This document shows positions 1,729 to 44,335 of a stretch of 47,367 nucleotides of DNA, in pieces. Both the position numbers and the translations under genes were made by a program. Origin of the DNA: an uncultured Prevotellaceae bacterium (lineage in GTDB: Bacteria > Bacteroidota > Bacteroidia > Bacteroidales > Bacteroidaceae); the NCBI GenBank assembly GCA_946406555.1, contig CAMJLB010000005.1:1-47367 (forward strand), written 5' to 3'. The notes beneath the pieces were generated by a model. That model searched no databases. It saw only the letters and a program-made list of their open reading frames with translations, and had not been told where the DNA came from. How positions within the stretch are numbered: position 1 is the first letter of the stretch; each line of letters opens with the position of its first letter.

Positions 1729-2825
1729 ACGAAGATTCGCTTTTCGAGCTGATGGAAGACCCCGACCTCTCCGACGGCTCTGCCTATCCTGACGAGGCTG
1801 CGATGGATGCCACCGGCCAGCTCTACGAGCACTTCCGCATAGAAGTGGACCGGGGGCAGGTGCCCCTGCGCATAGACAAATATCTGGCCGAGCACATGCA
1901 GCACCAGACGCGCAACCGCATTCAGGCCGCCGCCGAGGCTGGCTTCATACAGGTGGGCGGGCGGCCCGTGAAGAGCAACTACAAGGTGCGCCCGGGCGAC
2001 GTGGTGACGCTGATGCTCGACCGTCCGCATTTCGACACCACCATCGTGCCCGAAGAGCTGCCGCTCGACGTGCGCTATGAAGACGACGACCTGATGGTGG
2101 TCTACAAGCCGGCAGGCATGGTCGTGCACCCTGGCTGCGGCAACTTCCACGGGACGCTGGTGCATGCCATCGCATGGCATCTGCGCAACCTGCCCTCATA
2201 CGACCCCAACGACCCGCAGGTGGGGCTGGTGCACCGCATAGACAAAGACACCAGCGGACTGCTTGTGGTGGCGAAGACGCCGGCGGCCAAGACCAGCCTG
2301 GGCAAGCAGTTCTTCGACCACGACACCCACCGCAGCTACATCGCGCTGGTATGGGGAAACTTCGTCGACGACGAAGGCCGGATAGAGGGCAACATAGGCC
2401 GCGACCCGAAAGACCGGCTGCGCATGGCCGTGTTTCCACCGGGGAGCGAGACGGGCAAGCCGGCCGTGACCCACTACCGCGTGCTGGAGCGATATGGCTA
2501 CACCACACTGGTGGAGTGCCGGCTGGAGACAGGGCGCACCCACCAGATCAGGGCACACATGAAGCACATTGGCCATCCGCTCTTCGCCGATGAGCGCTAT
2601 GGCGGCTGCGAGATGCTGCGAGGCGAGCGCACGGCCAGCTACAAAGCCTACATACAGAACTGCTTCAAGCTTTGTCCGCGACAGGTGCTGCATGCACAGA
2701 CGCTGGGCTTCCGACATCCCGTCACCGGAGAACAGATGGACTTCACCAGCACGCTGCCCGACGACATGCAGGCACTTATTGATAAATGGAGAAACTATCT
2801 AAAAGGAAATAATAATACACAATGA
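1725..2825 (+). CDS. RluA/RluD family 23S rRNA pseudouridine synthase
   Basis: S4-like N-terminus and VGLVHRIDKDTSGLLVVAKT motif; 4-nt ATGA overlap with upstream gene. Confidence 0.93.
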   Translation: MNEDSLFELMEDPDLSDGSAYPDEAAMDATGQLYEHFRIEVDRGQVPLRIDKYLAEHMQHQTRNRIQAAAEAGFIQVGGRPVKSNYKVRPGDVVTLMLDRPHFDTTIVPEELPLDVRYEDDDLMVVYKPAGMVVHPGCGNFHGTLVHAIAWHLRNLPSYDPNDPQVGLVHRIDKDTSGLLVVAKTPAAKTSLGKQFFDHDTHRSYIALVWGNFVDDEGRIEGNIGRDPKDRLRMAVFPPGSETGKPAVTHYRVLERYGYTTLVECRLETGRTHQIRAHMKHIGHPLFADERYGGCEMLRGERTASYKAYIQNCFKLCPRQVLHAQTLGFRHPVTGEQMDFTSTLPDDMQALIDKWRNYLKGNNNTQ

Positions 2826-3811
2826 ATCAACAAAAACGCACAATCGCCATCGTATGTGGTGGCGACTCTTCGGAGCACGACGTATCGTTGCGCTCGGCAC
2901 GTGGCCTTTATTCGTTTTTCGACAAAGAGCGGTACGACGTGTATATCGTCGACATGAAAGGCACCGACTGGCAGGTAGAACTGCCCGGCGGCATCACGTC
3001 GCGCATCAACATGAACGACTTCTCGTTTCAGTATGAAGGGAAGACGCAGCTCTTCGACTATGCCTACATCACCATTCACGGCACACCGGGCGAGAACGGC
3101 ATACTGCAGGGATACTTCGACCTGATACACATGCCCTACAGCACCAGCGGCGTGCTCGTCGAGGCCATGACGTTCAACAAGTTCGTGCTCAACCAGTATC
3201 TGCGCGGCTATGGCGTCCGTGTGGCCGAGAGCGTGCTCGTGCGACGTGGCCAGGAGCAGCTCATCAGCAAGAAAGACATCATCGAAAAGCTGGGCATGCC
3301 CTGTTTCGTGAAGCCCGCCAACGATGGCTCCAGCTTCGGCGTGAGCAAGGTGAAAAAGCCCGACCAGCTCGCCGCCGCACTGCGGGTGGCCATGATGGAG
3401 AGCGATGAGGTGATGGTCGAGGCCTTTCTCGAGGGCACCGAGATCACCGTCGGCTGCTATAAGACGAAGGACAAGGAGGTGGTATTCCCCGTGACCGAGG
3501 TGGTGACGAAGAACGAGTTCTTCGACTACGATGCCAAGTACAACGGGCAGGTGGAGGAGATCACTCCCGCCCGCATTCCCGCCGAGCAGGCCGAGCGTGC
3601 GCAGAAGCTCACGTCGGCCATCTACGACATCCTGCATTGTAATGGCATCATCCGCATCGACTACATCATCTCCCCCCAGGGCGACATCACCATGCTCGAA
3701 ATCAACACCACGCCGGGCATGACTGCCACCAGCTTCATTCCCCAGCAGGTGCGTGCCGCAGGACTCGACATCAAAGACGTGCTCACAGATATTGTGGAAA
3801 ACCAACTTTAG
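2822..3811 (+). CDS. ddl: D-alanine--D-alanine ligase
   Basis: IAIVCGGDSSEHDVSLRSA..., HGTPGENGILQGYFDL, EINTTPGMT; ATG-grasp ligase motifs. Confidence 0.95.
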   Translation: MNQQKRTIAIVCGGDSSEHDVSLRSARGLYSFFDKERYDVYIVDMKGTDWQVELPGGITSRINMNDFSFQYEGKTQLFDYAYITIHGTPGENGILQGYFDLIHMPYSTSGVLVEAMTFNKFVLNQYLRGYGVRVAESVLVRRGQEQLISKKDIIEKLGMPCFVKPANDGSSFGVSKVKKPDQLAAALRVAMMESDEVMVEAFLEGTEITVGCYKTKDKEVVFPVTEVVTKNEFFDYDAKYNGQVEEITPARIPAEQAERAQKLTSAIYDILHCNGIIRIDYIISPQGDITMLEINTTPGMTATSFIPQQVRAAGLDIKDVLTDIVENQL

Positions 3812-3813
3812 TG

Positions 3814-3842
3814 TATAGAGAATAATGAATAGTTATGATTAG
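3814..3842 (+). repeat. Left arm of inverted repeat flanking the four-helix-bundle gene
   Basis: TATAGAGAATAATGAATAGTTATGATTAG; 26/29 identical to the reverse complement of 4213-4241, with a perfect 17-bp core. Confidence 0.9.
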
Positions 3843-4203
3843 GCCAGAGAGTCCGTTGCAAGTGAAATCGGAATTGTATTCTGCGAGAATTGTCAAATTA
3901 TACCACTATTTGACTAATACGAAACACGAAAAGACAATGGCTTTACAAATATACCGATGTGGAACAAGTATTGGAGCCAATATCGCTGAAAGCAGATATG
4001 CACAGAGCGGCGCCGACTTTGTAAGCAAGCTGAGTATAGCATTGAAGGAGGCTTCTGAGACGAAGTTTTGGCTTGGAAATCTTTTTGCTGCAGGTTTGAT
4101 AGACAAACGGGGCTATGAGTCGATGTTGGCAGACAATACGGAACTCATGAAAATGTTGATATCCTCTATCAAGACGATGAAGAAAAAAATGGGAATATTA
4201 TAA
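3835..4203 (+). CDS. Four-helix bundle protein / 23S rRNA-intervening sequence protein family
   Basis: IYRCGTSIGANIAESRYAQSGADFVSKLSIALKEASETKFWLGNL is the signature of the IVP/S23 family. The exact start is uncertain; the annotated ATG lies inside an inverted repeat. Confidence 0.88.
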   Translation: MIRPESPLQVKSELYSARIVKLYHYLTNTKHEKTMALQIYRCGTSIGANIAESRYAQSGADFVSKLSIALKEASETKFWLGNLFAAGLIDKRGYESMLADNTELMKMLISSIKTMKKKMGIL

Positions 4204-4212
4204 TAGTCTTTT

Positions 4213-4241
4213 CTAATCATAACTATTCACTTTTCACTATA
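4213..4241 (-). repeat. Right arm of inverted repeat flanking the four-helix-bundle gene
   Basis: CTAATCATAACTATTCACTTTTCACTATA, complementary to 3814-3842. Confidence 0.9.
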
Positions 4242-4252
4242 AACTATAAACT

Positions 4253-5434
4253 ATGAATGAGTTCGATGACATTCGCCCCTACGAGGCCGAAGAGATGGCG
4301 CAGGCCTTCGACGGGCTGCTTGCCGACCGGCAGTTCAATGCGATTATGAAAGGCTTTGCGCCCTGGCTGCCCCGGAGCCTGCGCAACGGGCTGCTCCGGC
4401 TGGCCTTCATCGGCGTGAAGACACCACTCGACTTCCAGCTGAGGTTCATGAAGCCGGTGGTGAAATACATCATACGCAAACATACCGACGGCACGGCCTT
4501 CGACGACCGCGCACTGCGGGCCTGCGGCGACTACCGTGCGCCCCGCTACACCTTCGTGAGCAATCATCGCGACATCGTGCTCGACTCGGCATTCCTCGAT
4601 GTGATGCTCGTGGAGAACGGCTACCCCACCACGGTGGAAATAGGCATTGGCGACAACCTGCTCATCTATCCCTGGATAAAGCGGCTGGTGCGCATGAACA
4701 AGTCGTTCACCGTGCATCGGGGCCTTTCGCCGAAGGAGATGCTGCGCAGCAGTCAGCTCATGAGCCGCTACATACACTATGCCGTGAACACGAAGAAGGA
4801 GAATATATGGATAGCTCAGCGCGAAGGCCGGGCCAAAGACTCCGACGACCGCACGCAGGAGTCGGTGCTGAAGATGCTCGCCATGGGCGGTGGCGAGCAG
4901 GTGGGCGCGCTGGAGTCGTTGAAGCAGCTGAATATCGTGCCGCTCGCCATCAGCTACGAATACGACCCCTGCGACTATCTGAAGGCGAAGGAGTTCCAGA
5001 TGAAGCGCGACAACCCGGCCTTCAAGAAAAGCAGACAGGACGACCTCGACAACATGCGCACGGGCATCCTGGGATACAAGGGACGTGTGGCCTATCACTG
5101 CGCCGCTCCCATCAACACCTGGATAGACGAGTTGGCTGCATTGCCGAAAAACGAGTTCTACCATGAGCTGAGCCGCCGTATAGACAGCCAGATACACCGT
5201 AACTACTGCCTCTATCCCGGCAATTATATCGCGATGGACATGCTCAGTGGCAACCGCGACCATGCCGACCACTACACCGAGAAAGACCTGAAAGCCTTCA
5301 ACAGCTATCTGGAAGGACAGATGGCCAAGATCGACATGCCCAATAAGGACGAGGCCTTCTTGCATGAGCGAATGCTCACCATGTATGCCAACCCTTGCCG
5401 TAACTATCTGGCAGCACATGCCAATGATCAATAA
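4253..5434 (+). CDS. 1-acyl-sn-glycerol-3-phosphate acyltransferase-like (PlsC superfamily) protein
   Basis: YTFVSNHRDIVLDSAFLDVML (HxxxxD-type acyltransferase motif). Confidence 0.8.
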   Translation: MNEFDDIRPYEAEEMAQAFDGLLADRQFNAIMKGFAPWLPRSLRNGLLRLAFIGVKTPLDFQLRFMKPVVKYIIRKHTDGTAFDDRALRACGDYRAPRYTFVSNHRDIVLDSAFLDVMLVENGYPTTVEIGIGDNLLIYPWIKRLVRMNKSFTVHRGLSPKEMLRSSQLMSRYIHYAVNTKKENIWIAQREGRAKDSDDRTQESVLKMLAMGGGEQVGALESLKQLNIVPLAISYEYDPCDYLKAKEFQMKRDNPAFKKSRQDDLDNMRTGILGYKGRVAYHCAAPINTWIDELAALPKNEFYHELSRRIDSQIHRNYCLYPGNYIAMDMLSGNRDHADHYTEKDLKAFNSYLEGQMAKIDMPNKDEAFLHERMLTMYANPCRNYLAAHANDQ

Positions 5435-7457: not shown

Positions 7458-7565
7458 TCAGCGAGAAATAGAATCTTTTTTCAATAACAGCACTGAGGCA
7501 GGTCGTTGTCCGTTAAGGGCAGCGACCTGTTTCTGGTTTTCAGCAAGCACACCGAGCTTAGAAGC

Positions 7566-8360
7566 ATGGAAGAACTGGTTATTTCGAGTGTACAAAATCC
7601 GAAAATAAAACGGCTGCTGGCACTGCAGCAGAAGTCGCAGCAGCGTCGGCGCGAAGGCTGCTTCGTGGTTGAGGGGCGCCGCGAACTGCAGCACTGCATC
7701 GAGGCAGGATACGAAGTGGAGAGCATCTTCAGGAGTGAACAGTTTATAGTGGATAGTGAAGAGTTCGCTCAACGCTACACCGTCACGCCTGCCGTCTACG
7801 AACGCATGGCCTACCGGGGCTCTACCGAAGGCGTGGTGGCCATAGTCAAGGCAAAAGAACACAGGCTTGCCGACCTCGCGCTGCCCGAACACCCGCTCAT
7901 CGTGGTGCTCGAGAGCGTAGAGAAGCCTGGCAACCTGGGAGCTGTGCTGCGTTCGGCCGATGCCGCCAAGGCCGATGCCGTGGTCGTGTGCGACCCGCTC
8001 ACCGACCTCTATAATCCCAATCTTATTCGCTCGAGCATCGGCGCCATCTTCACCGTGCCCACCGTGGCCACCAGCAGCGACGAGTGCATAGCCTTCCTGA
8101 AACAGCACCACATACAGATTCTCACTGCCCAGCTGCAAGACTCACGTCTTTATTACGACACGCCCATGACCGGGGCCACGGCCATCGTCATGGGAACCGA
8201 ATCCACCGGACTTACCAACCAGTGGCGGCAGGCGGCCGACGCGCATATCCGCATTCCCATGCTTGGCAGGCTCGACTCGCTCAATGTGTCGGTATCGGCG
8301 GCCATACTCCTCTTCGAGGCGGTAAGGCAACGGCAGGAAGCGGGAAGTAAAGAAACCTAA
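7566..8360 (+). CDS. TrmH/SpoU family RNA 2'-O-methyltransferase
   Basis: VVLESVEKPGNLGAVLRSADAAKADAVVVC and IVMGTESTGLTNQW, IPMLGRLDSLNVSVSAAILLFE motifs. Confidence 0.92.
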   Translation: MEELVISSVQNPKIKRLLALQQKSQQRRREGCFVVEGRRELQHCIEAGYEVESIFRSEQFIVDSEEFAQRYTVTPAVYERMAYRGSTEGVVAIVKAKEHRLADLALPEHPLIVVLESVEKPGNLGAVLRSADAAKADAVVVCDPLTDLYNPNLIRSSIGAIFTVPTVATSSDECIAFLKQHHIQILTAQLQDSRLYYDTPMTGATAIVMGTESTGLTNQWRQAADAHIRIPMLGRLDSLNVSVSAAILLFEAVRQRQEAGSKET

Positions 8361-39474: not shown

Positions 39475-39508
39475 TGAATTGATAATTGAGAATTGAAAAT
39501 TGAGAATT

Positions 39509-40024
39509 ATGATTAGAAAAGCTTTTTTGACCATTGTCATGTTGGTGGCAGCGATGACGATGAATGCGCAGAAATTTGCATTGGTCGACATGGACTACAT
39601 CTTCAAGAACATCCCTGCCTACGAGCGGGCCAACGAGCAGCTCTCGCAGGTGTCGCGCAAGTGGCAGGCTGAGGTCGACGCCCTCTCTACCGAGGCGCAG
39701 ACCATGTACAAGAACTACCAGAACGAGGTGGTGTTCCTCTCCAAGGAGCAGAAGCAGGCCAAGCAGGATGCCATCATGAAGAAGGAGAAAGAGGCCAGCG
39801 ACCTGAAGCGGAAGTACTTCGGACCCGACGGCGAGCTCTTCAAGAAGCGCACGGCGCTCATGAGTCCCATTCAGGATGAGGTCTACAATGCCGTGAAGGA
39901 CATTGCCGACCTGCGTGGCTATCAGCTCGTCATCGACCGCGCCAGCGACACCGGCATCATCTTTGGTTCGCCTAAGATCGACATCAGCAACGAGGTGCTC
40001 CAGAAGCTGGGGTATGCTAATTGA
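39509..40024 (+). CDS. OmpH/Skp family periplasmic chaperone (paralog 1)
   Basis: KFALVDMDYIFKNIPAYERANEQLSQVSRKWQAEVDALSTEAQTMY. Confidence 0.9.
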   Translation: MIRKAFLTIVMLVAAMTMNAQKFALVDMDYIFKNIPAYERANEQLSQVSRKWQAEVDALSTEAQTMYKNYQNEVVFLSKEQKQAKQDAIMKKEKEASDLKRKYFGPDGELFKKRTALMSPIQDEVYNAVKDIADLRGYQLVIDRASDTGIIFGSPKIDISNEVLQKLGYAN

Positions 40025-42958: not shown

Positions 42959-44221
42959 ATGGCAACAAAGAAAGACGCGAAAGGCCCCTCGATGTTCGAG
43001 ACCTTTCAGGAGTTTAAGGAGACCAAGAACATTGACCGCACCACCCTCGTGAGCGTGCTCGAAGAGAGCTTCCGCAACGTGCTGGCCAAGCTGTTCGGCA
43101 GCGACGAGAACTTCGACGTGATTGTGAACCCCGACAAGGGCGACTTCGAGATTCACCGCAACCGCATCGTGGTGGCCGATGGCGACGTGAAGGACGAAAA
43201 CAAGGAGATAGAACTGAAGGAGGCACAGAAGATAGAGCCCGACTATGAGGTGGGCGAGGAAGTGAGCGAGCCGGTAGACTTCACCAAGTTCGGCCGTCGC
43301 GCTATACTGAACCTGCGCCAGACCCTGGCTTCGAAGATCCTTGAGCTCGACCACGATGCCCTCTACCAGAAGTACAAGGACAAGGTAGGCACCATCGTCT
43401 CGGCCGAGGTCTACCAGATGTGGAAGCGCGAGGTGCTCCTCATGGATGATGAGGGCAACGAGCTGCATCTGCCCAAGAACGAGCAGATTCCCGCCGACAC
43501 CTACCGCAAGGGCGAGACCGTGCGCGCCTTGGTGAAGGAGGTGCAGAACGAGAACAACAACCCCCGCATCATTCTTTCCCGCACCAATCCCGACTTCCTG
43601 AAGCGGCTGCTCGAGGCCGAGGTGCCCGAGATTGGCGACGGACTGATTGCCATTCGCCGTGTGGCCCGCATGCCGGGCGAACGTGCCAAGGTGGCCGTGG
43701 AGAGCTTCGACGACCGCATCGACCCCGTGGGAGCCTGCGTGGGCGTGAAAGGTTCGCGTGTGCATGGCATCGTGCGCGAGCTGCAGAACGAGAACATCGA
43801 CGTGATCAATTATTCTAGCAATGTGCAGCTCTTCATTCAGCGCGCACTCTCGCCGGCCAAGGTCACCAGCATCACCCTCGATCCCGATAACCATAAGGCC
43901 GAAGTCTATCTGCAGCCCGAAGAGGTGAGCCTCGCCATCGGCAAGGGTGGCATGAACATCAAGCTGGCCTCGATGCTCACCGAGTTTACCATCGATGTGT
44001 TCCGTGTGGTGCCGGAAGGCGGCGACAACGACGAGGACATCTACCTCGACGAGTTCAGCGACGAAATCGACCAGTGGGTCATCGATGCCATCAAGGCCAT
44101 CGGCCTCGACACGGCAAAGGCCGTAATCAATGCACCCCGCGATATGCTTATAGAAAAGGCCGACCTCGAGGAAGAGACCGTAGACCATCTGCTCGAGGTG
44201 CTGAAGGCAGAATTCGAATAG
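42959..44221 (+). CDS. nusA: Transcription termination/antitermination factor NusA
   Basis: S1 and KH domains: PGERAKVAVESFDDRIDPVGACVGVKGSRVHGIVRELQNENIDVI. Confidence 0.96.
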   Translation: MATKKDAKGPSMFETFQEFKETKNIDRTTLVSVLEESFRNVLAKLFGSDENFDVIVNPDKGDFEIHRNRIVVADGDVKDENKEIELKEAQKIEPDYEVGEEVSEPVDFTKFGRRAILNLRQTLASKILELDHDALYQKYKDKVGTIVSAEVYQMWKREVLLMDDEGNELHLPKNEQIPADTYRKGETVRALVKEVQNENNNPRIILSRTNPDFLKRLLEAEVPEIGDGLIAIRRVARMPGERAKVAVESFDDRIDPVGACVGVKGSRVHGIVRELQNENIDVINYSSNVQLFIQRALSPAKVTSITLDPDNHKAEVYLQPEEVSLAIGKGGMNIKLASMLTEFTIDVFRVVPEGGDNDEDIYLDEFSDEIDQWVIDAIKAIGLDTAKAVINAPRDMLIEKADLEEETVDHLLEVLKAEFE

Positions 44222-44335
44222 ATTGAAGATTGAAGGTTGAACATTAGACATTAGCTTCATGCTGATGAGTTTCAGTCTTCACATCGGATAGATCGCTCAA
44301 TAATAATTTCAATTTTCAATTTTCAATTTGAAAGA

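Follow-up and report, generated by a model that had tools for sequence, protein, structure and literature searches.

A 4HB gene enclosed by inverted heptamer arrays between ddl and its neighbour in a Prevotella-like genome, a candidate gene-bearing member of a dispersing hairpin family

The 428-bp unit found between ddl and the following gene on contig C5 of a Prevotella-like genome (G000; 2.97 Mb in 179 contigs, 84.6 % complete) is probably, in our judgement, the gene-bearing case of a dispersing two-part family, composed of a 23S rRNA-intervening-sequence protein (also S23 or IVP, hereafter called 4HB protein) and of heptamer-hairpin substrates that would be spread in trans. The whole stretch of contig C5 that was analysed, 47,367 nucleotides, is called the window. 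The observed basis of this reading is the architecture of the unit, its association with the protein family as a whole, the covariation of its arms, empty and occupied sites in relatives, gene-free copies, the co-occurrence of arrays and 4HB genes, purifying selection and an Avd-like fold. An earlier note on this DNA had described the inverted repeat and the enclosed gene, but overlooked that the arms are heptamer arrays, that such an arrangement is the general one among 4HB genes and that most of the genomic copies are gene-free.

The left arm (3809..3842, forward strand) consists of degenerate tandem heptamers (AGTGTAT AGAGAAT AATGAAT AGTTATG ATTAG), begins within the ddl stop codon and has TTATGATTAG as its inner edge. 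The right arm (4213..4246, reverse strand; reverse complement TAGTTTATAGTGAAAAGTGAATAGTTATGATTAG) is the left arm inverted, the two 34-nt arms being 88 % complementary, and the right-side period-7 array in its full extent (4217..4252, reverse strand) abuts the ATG of the downstream gene at 4253. The shorter repeats reported previously, 3814-3842 and 4213-4241 with 26 of 29 positions matching, were correctly described, and their 17-nt core, TGAATAGTTATGATTAG, is indeed identical on both sides; chance matches to this core in the window numbered 0 in 100 shuffles. The arms enclose an ORF of 122 amino acids (3835..4203, forward strand), the assignment of which to the 23S rRNA-intervening-sequence protein family was borne out by PF05635 (1.6e-20, 73.7 bits with a curated cut-off of 33.8) and TIGR02436 (4e-25, 88.2 bits with a curated cut-off of 24), as well as by an AlphaFold model. 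As had been noted, the unit is more AT-rich than the flanking genes, with a GC content of 0.376 compared with 0.57-0.58 in the 1-kb flanks. The Rfam search of the window gave no rRNA, and the unit sits between two protein genes.

Both of these neighbours are intact, as they had appeared to be in the earlier note. Upstream, ddl (2822..3811, forward strand) gives a full-length match to D-alanine-D-alanine ligase, and the downstream ORF (4253..5434, forward strand) is full length and conserved beside ddl in relatives, but its description as an acyltransferase, a name used below as a label, found no match in a Pfam search. The ATG at 3835 does lie in the left arm, as predicted, but it is not a conserved start codon: in the closest relative, L174, with a protein 74 % identical, the frame from the arm ATG closes and the real start is downstream, and related elements likewise have their start downstream, so that a conserved start within the arm was rejected. 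Since the arm ATG is not kept as the start in L174, the conserved TATGATTA edge is a nucleotide feature.

The 4HB loci compared were gathered from 149 relatives, 80 public genome loci, extra copies in multi-copy genomes and twelve plasmids. Inverted arms (score ≥16) were present at 85 % of the 129 4HB genes with flanking sequence, from Bacteroidota, Bacillota, Cyanobacteria, Spirochaetota, Chloroflexota and others, compared with 2.7 % of 148 other ORFs from the same loci and 4.2 % of swapped arm pairs. Self-identity within an arm was 0.67 at lag 7 and 0.27-0.38 at lags 3-6 and 8-13. The unit, loosely A-R-T-K-R-A-N, pointed inward in 100 of 110 arms and varied widely by locus (AGTGAAT, AATTGAG, AATTAGT and AGGTGAA, and AATTCGC in Nostoc). 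The inner-edge classes TATGATTA and TTGCTACCG track 4HB clades, in a tree of modest support (about 120 columns), and behave as cognate pairs would.

All 12 plasmid 4HB genes had heptamer arrays on both sides, with weak pairing in L262 and L251. These plasmids came from cyanobacteria (Nostoc, Dolichospermum, Planktothrix, Euhalothece, Gloeocapsa and Pseudanabaena) and from Treponema, Candidatus Chlorohelix, Monoglobus and Bernardetia (Spirochaetota, Chloroflexota, Bacillota and Bacteroidota, respectively). Several armed plasmid 4HB genes (L255, L256, L257, L259, L261 and L262) sit inside defence-type operons: some adjoin DISARM drmD and BREX pglX, others are placed between hsdS and hsdR or between genes for DUF1156 and Swt1-HEPN, and cas1 is a further gene found near them.

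At a given locus the arms match in register, with an identity of 0.87 compared with 0.61 when slid by one unit (±7). Because the alignment has some part in selecting this register, shuffling of the unit order was added, and 46 of 85 arms exceeded 95 % of their own unit-order shuffles. Over 28 nt at the 16 loci with the TATGATTA edge, identity between the arms of one locus was 0.82, above all 2000 permutations, compared with 0.535 across loci. The unit thus differs between loci and agrees within a locus, so that the stem changes in sequence but keeps, or copies, its complementarity. Folding predicts that the arms form a closed stem in the window transcript (z = -2.66), and, together with the maintained complementarity, this prediction favours the earlier proposal that the transcript could fold as a stem around the ORF.

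Within the genus, 76 intact ddl-acyltransferase gaps were counted. In 20 of them the gap is empty and shorter than 30 bp, the downstream gene starting -4 to 28 bp after ddl; four (the window, G041, G169 and G030) contain a 4HB element, and about fifteen contain solo arms in one orientation, often ending at the downstream ATG. A single clade of the four ddl-site 4HB genes was rejected (AU test, p = 0.0035), by which vertical orthology of these genes was ruled out, and the heptamers differ among the arms of the four occupied sites; filling, or refilling, of the site therefore took place more than once. The empty sites at the ddl gap are too diverged for a target-site duplication to be defined. 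The search for empty sites that the earlier note had recommended therefore returned both empty and occupied ones, and these, with the solo-arm remnants and the gene-free copies described below, support its suggestion that the unit may be a mobile or formerly mobile cassette. In three relatives (L168, L264 and L273) the same gap is occupied by a different, GC-rich hairpin element of the CCCTCCCCAAGGGAGGG type, suggesting the possibility that the gap is a general landing site.

AT-rich period-7 arrays numbered 30 in an 847-kb sample of G000, compared with 0-8 for periods 4-6 and 8-13, which served as the null; a reversed-pattern control was dropped from this role because other heptamer phases satisfy the reversed pattern. 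By extrapolation, there are about 100 arrays per genome. Both gene-free hairpins and solo arrays that share the arms and the inner edge of the unit are dispersed over the genome. The exact arm core recurs as gene-free hairpins at contigs C50 and C69, contigs C149 and C62 carry related gene-free hairpins, and G041 and G072 also have hairpins in which these arms enclose no gene. Ten inverted heptamer pairs were identified in the 847 kb; in nine the loop does not exceed 90 nt or the arms are nearly palindromic, and the sole loop of coding size contains the 4HB gene. Beside the gene at the C69 hairpin and the gene at a second hairpin, nearly all relatives are without such a hairpin. For two of the gene-free hairpins, alignment of the downstream gene with relatives reaches as far as the arm, and no target duplication can be read because the upstream gene is not syntenic. 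The earlier note had named, as an outcome that would count against it, arms belonging to a generic intergenic repeat with neither covariation nor presence/absence polymorphism; the arms are indeed members of an intergenic repeat family that is dispersed, but both the covariation and the polymorphism exist.

Two further arrays lie in the window. A solo left-type array of AATTGAG/AATTGAA units (39478..39515, forward strand), located between an outer-membrane (BamA-like) gene and an OmpH/Skp-like gene (MIRKAFLT...), terminates in TTATGATTA, and the OmpH/Skp-like gene apparently starts at the ATG of this edge (39509). A gene-free, inward-pointing pair of GATTGAA-type and TTTCAAT-type arrays (44220..44333) occupies the gap between nusA-like and infB-like genes of an essential operon, these names having been read from the translations. 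A heptamer-like run (AGTGAAC AGTTTAT AGTGGAT AGTGAAG) at 7734-7761 is in frame within an RNA methyltransferase-like ORF (7506-8360) and is possibly due to chance or to an array absorbed into coding sequence.

Other repeats were observed besides these. A decayed 4HB fragment on contig C36 (L002:1400-1650) has decayed heptamers of the TTTGCTACCGC edge class, which is evidence that another type of element has turned over. A second dispersed palindrome family of this genome, 40-115 nt long and of the form CAATTCAGCCTG...CAGGCTGAATTG, is unrelated to the heptamer arrays (L225:15042-15156, L233:17173-17263, L223:12770-12864 and others). Near-perfect GC-rich inverted repeats of 40-46 nt with a common loop of about 40 nt (GATTAGCTCTG...; L220:14882-15000 and L222:1247-1378) are MITE-like.

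The number of arrays per genome correlated with the 4HB copy number (Spearman 0.53, n = 149; 0.63 with one genome per family), a correlation that base composition could confound and of which, by estimate, only a small part should be due to the arms around the 4HB copies. The median was 120 arrays in genomes with a 4HB gene and 5 in genomes without. Many arrays were also present in G018 (330) and G085 (513) despite no detected 4HB gene, both assemblies being incomplete.

In all comparisons in which dS could be estimated, dN/dS of the 4HB gene was 0.02-0.16, indicating that the protein is maintained by purifying selection. Avd, the partner of the reverse transcriptase in diversity-generating retroelements (DGR), is a pentamer which binds nucleic acid and the reverse transcriptase. 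The AlphaFold model of the 122-amino-acid protein (pLDDT 96) has four helices, and in Foldseek it matched BT_0352 (2RLD; TM 0.83-0.86) and XCC0516 (2GSC) and, more weakly (TM about 0.6-0.73, with 15-20 % sequence identity), Avd alone (4DWL) and in complex with the DGR reverse transcriptase (8UB7 and others). Given the binding properties of Avd, the predicted fold makes a role as a structure-binding cofactor plausible for the 4HB protein.

The element family would then comprise convergent inverted 7-nt arrays around a 4HB gene or, far more often, around only a short loop, with the 4HB protein most likely being its trans-acting factor. The protein may bind the heptamer hairpin in its folded form, be it RNA or single-stranded DNA, and would help in trans to spread gene-bearing and gene-free copies into short intergenic gaps of operons; the copying enzyme would be encoded elsewhere or belong to the host. 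Closure of the transcript into a stem, which is probably cut out by RNase III, as in rRNA intervening sequences, would explain why copies are tolerated in operons. Several points count against a dispersing family: de novo insertions were not seen, a target-site duplication could not be read, G000 (84.6 % complete) gave neither a reverse transcriptase nor a Y1 transposase, some genomes with no detected 4HB gene have many arrays, base composition may confound the correlation of arrays with 4HB genes, and a regulatory role is an alternative for the solo arrays that end at start codons.

The resemblance to rRNA intervening sequences (IVS) proved closer than had been claimed. In the 23S IVS of Coxiella burnetii an S23p ORF is combined with a terminal stem of 28 bp; tandem GACAGAT heptamers occur at this stem, adjoining the start of the ORF and at the site of RNase III cleavage (PMC4990558). 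Both inserts encode the same protein family, measure about 430 nt, form a stem from terminal inverted repeats and contain tandem heptamers. The unit described here thus has the stem-closing inverted repeats and the S23p/IVP ORF of a 23S IVS, but lies between protein genes, and since it is outside rRNA it is IVS-like without being an IVS. Its arms, unlike those of the Coxiella insert, belong to a large dispersed repeat family, and its ORF is under strong purifying selection, whereas S23p in Coxiella was inferred to be unexpressed and degrading (PMC4990558).

Excision of the Coxiella insert by RNase III in vitro (PMC4990558) fits an alternative explanation, which we consider unlikely, that the unit is a module for RNA processing or regulation which itself moves little. 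RNase III would cut the stem, the 4HB protein would bind it and regulate the cutting or its own synthesis, and copies would result from rare duplication and from recombination between arrays. The covarying arms and the predicted closing stem agree with such a module, as do the insertions within operons after stop codons and the solo arrays right at start codons. The presence/absence polymorphism, the decayed and gene-free copies, the approximately 100 arrays per genome and the 4HB genes of more than one clade at one site look like dispersal instead, and MacGregor saw no functional pattern among the genes that follow heptamer arrays (PMC4679880).

Heptamer repeats have been described before. 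TAACTGA repeats occur in Beggiatoaceae, cyanobacteria and Bacteroidetes, and in Beggiatoaceae they lie upstream of start codons (PMC4679880); GGGAATC heptamers are known in Xanthomonas, where they form convergent inverted pairs, and GGGGA(C/T)T in Nostoc (PMC4692102). Like the arrays studied here, these are intergenic 7-nt tandem repeats, and Xanthomonas also encodes a 4HB protein, XCC0516 (2GSC); 4HB/S23 genes go unmentioned in both papers. The Beggiatoaceae repeats are in keeping with a further and distinctly improbable explanation, namely that the arrays are intergenic repeats of a general kind driven by slippage, such as sites of translation control, with the 4HB genes as passenger or client. 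Arrays are abundant and mostly gene-free, and solo arrays end in ATG, as this would predict. Slippage, however, does not explain an inverted second arm in register, nor does such a repeat agree with the 4HB gene as the only coding-size insert among the ten inverted pairs in 847 kb, with control ORFs lacking arms, with array numbers that follow 4HB numbers or with inner-edge classes that follow 4HB clades.

The dispersing two-part family also resembles REP/RAYT systems, in which many short intergenic hairpins are mostly gene-free, a few flank a conserved gene and the repeat type tracks the protein clade. The protein here nevertheless belongs to the 4HB family and is no Y1/HUH transposase, and in place of GTAG-tagged palindromes there are arrays of heptamers. 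Profile searches of the 84.6 %-complete G000 genome found no Y1 transposase (PF01797, Y1_Tnp) and no reverse transcriptase (PF00078, RVT_1), by which RAYT and reverse-transcriptase explanations were ruled out for this genome. With Avd of DGR the 4HB protein shares the four-helix fold, but, apart from the undetected reverse transcriptase, there is nothing retroelement-like in the 428-bp unit. It is very doubtful that the unit is a decayed insertion sequence or MITE with its transposase elsewhere and the 4HB gene as cargo. Terminal inverted repeats, presence/absence and non-autonomous copies would be expected of one, but the arm sequence changes by locus, unlike the fixed ends that transposases recognise: no fixed end is common to all copies, and short inner edges recur within clades only. 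One protein family is found inside the arms across phyla, and the ORF is under purifying selection; a target duplication could not be defined at the diverged empty sites. A vertically inherited gene with fortuitous repeats is refuted by the swapped-arm, other-ORF and shuffle controls, with the ddl-site polymorphism and the arm covariation also against it, and is given practically no weight.

The architecture is general among 4HB genes and had apparently gone undescribed, the link between heptamers and 4HB genes being made here. No paper tying 4HB/S23 genes to heptamer arrays outside rRNA was found in a literature search that left most subscription papers uncovered, and priority is uncertain. 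The recurrence around 4HB genes in many phyla, together with scattered gene-free copies, points to an unrecognised spreading element related to the inserts that fragment some rRNAs. More tentatively, IVP/S23 4HB proteins may drive dispersing elements across phyla without a transposase of their own, on convergent heptamer-array hairpins, with heptamer repeats (cyanobacterial short tandem repeats, TAACTGA and perhaps GGGAATC) and rRNA intervening sequences as their footprints; this is put forward as a possibility in which we have limited confidence. What orphan S23/IVP proteins do, how rRNA intervening sequences arose and where bacterial heptamer repeats come from have been three separate puzzles. 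The sequence evidence joins the protein gene, the heptamer hairpin arms and the gene-free hairpins as one family in several phyla, and provides a plausible route by which such inserts may have entered rRNA genes.
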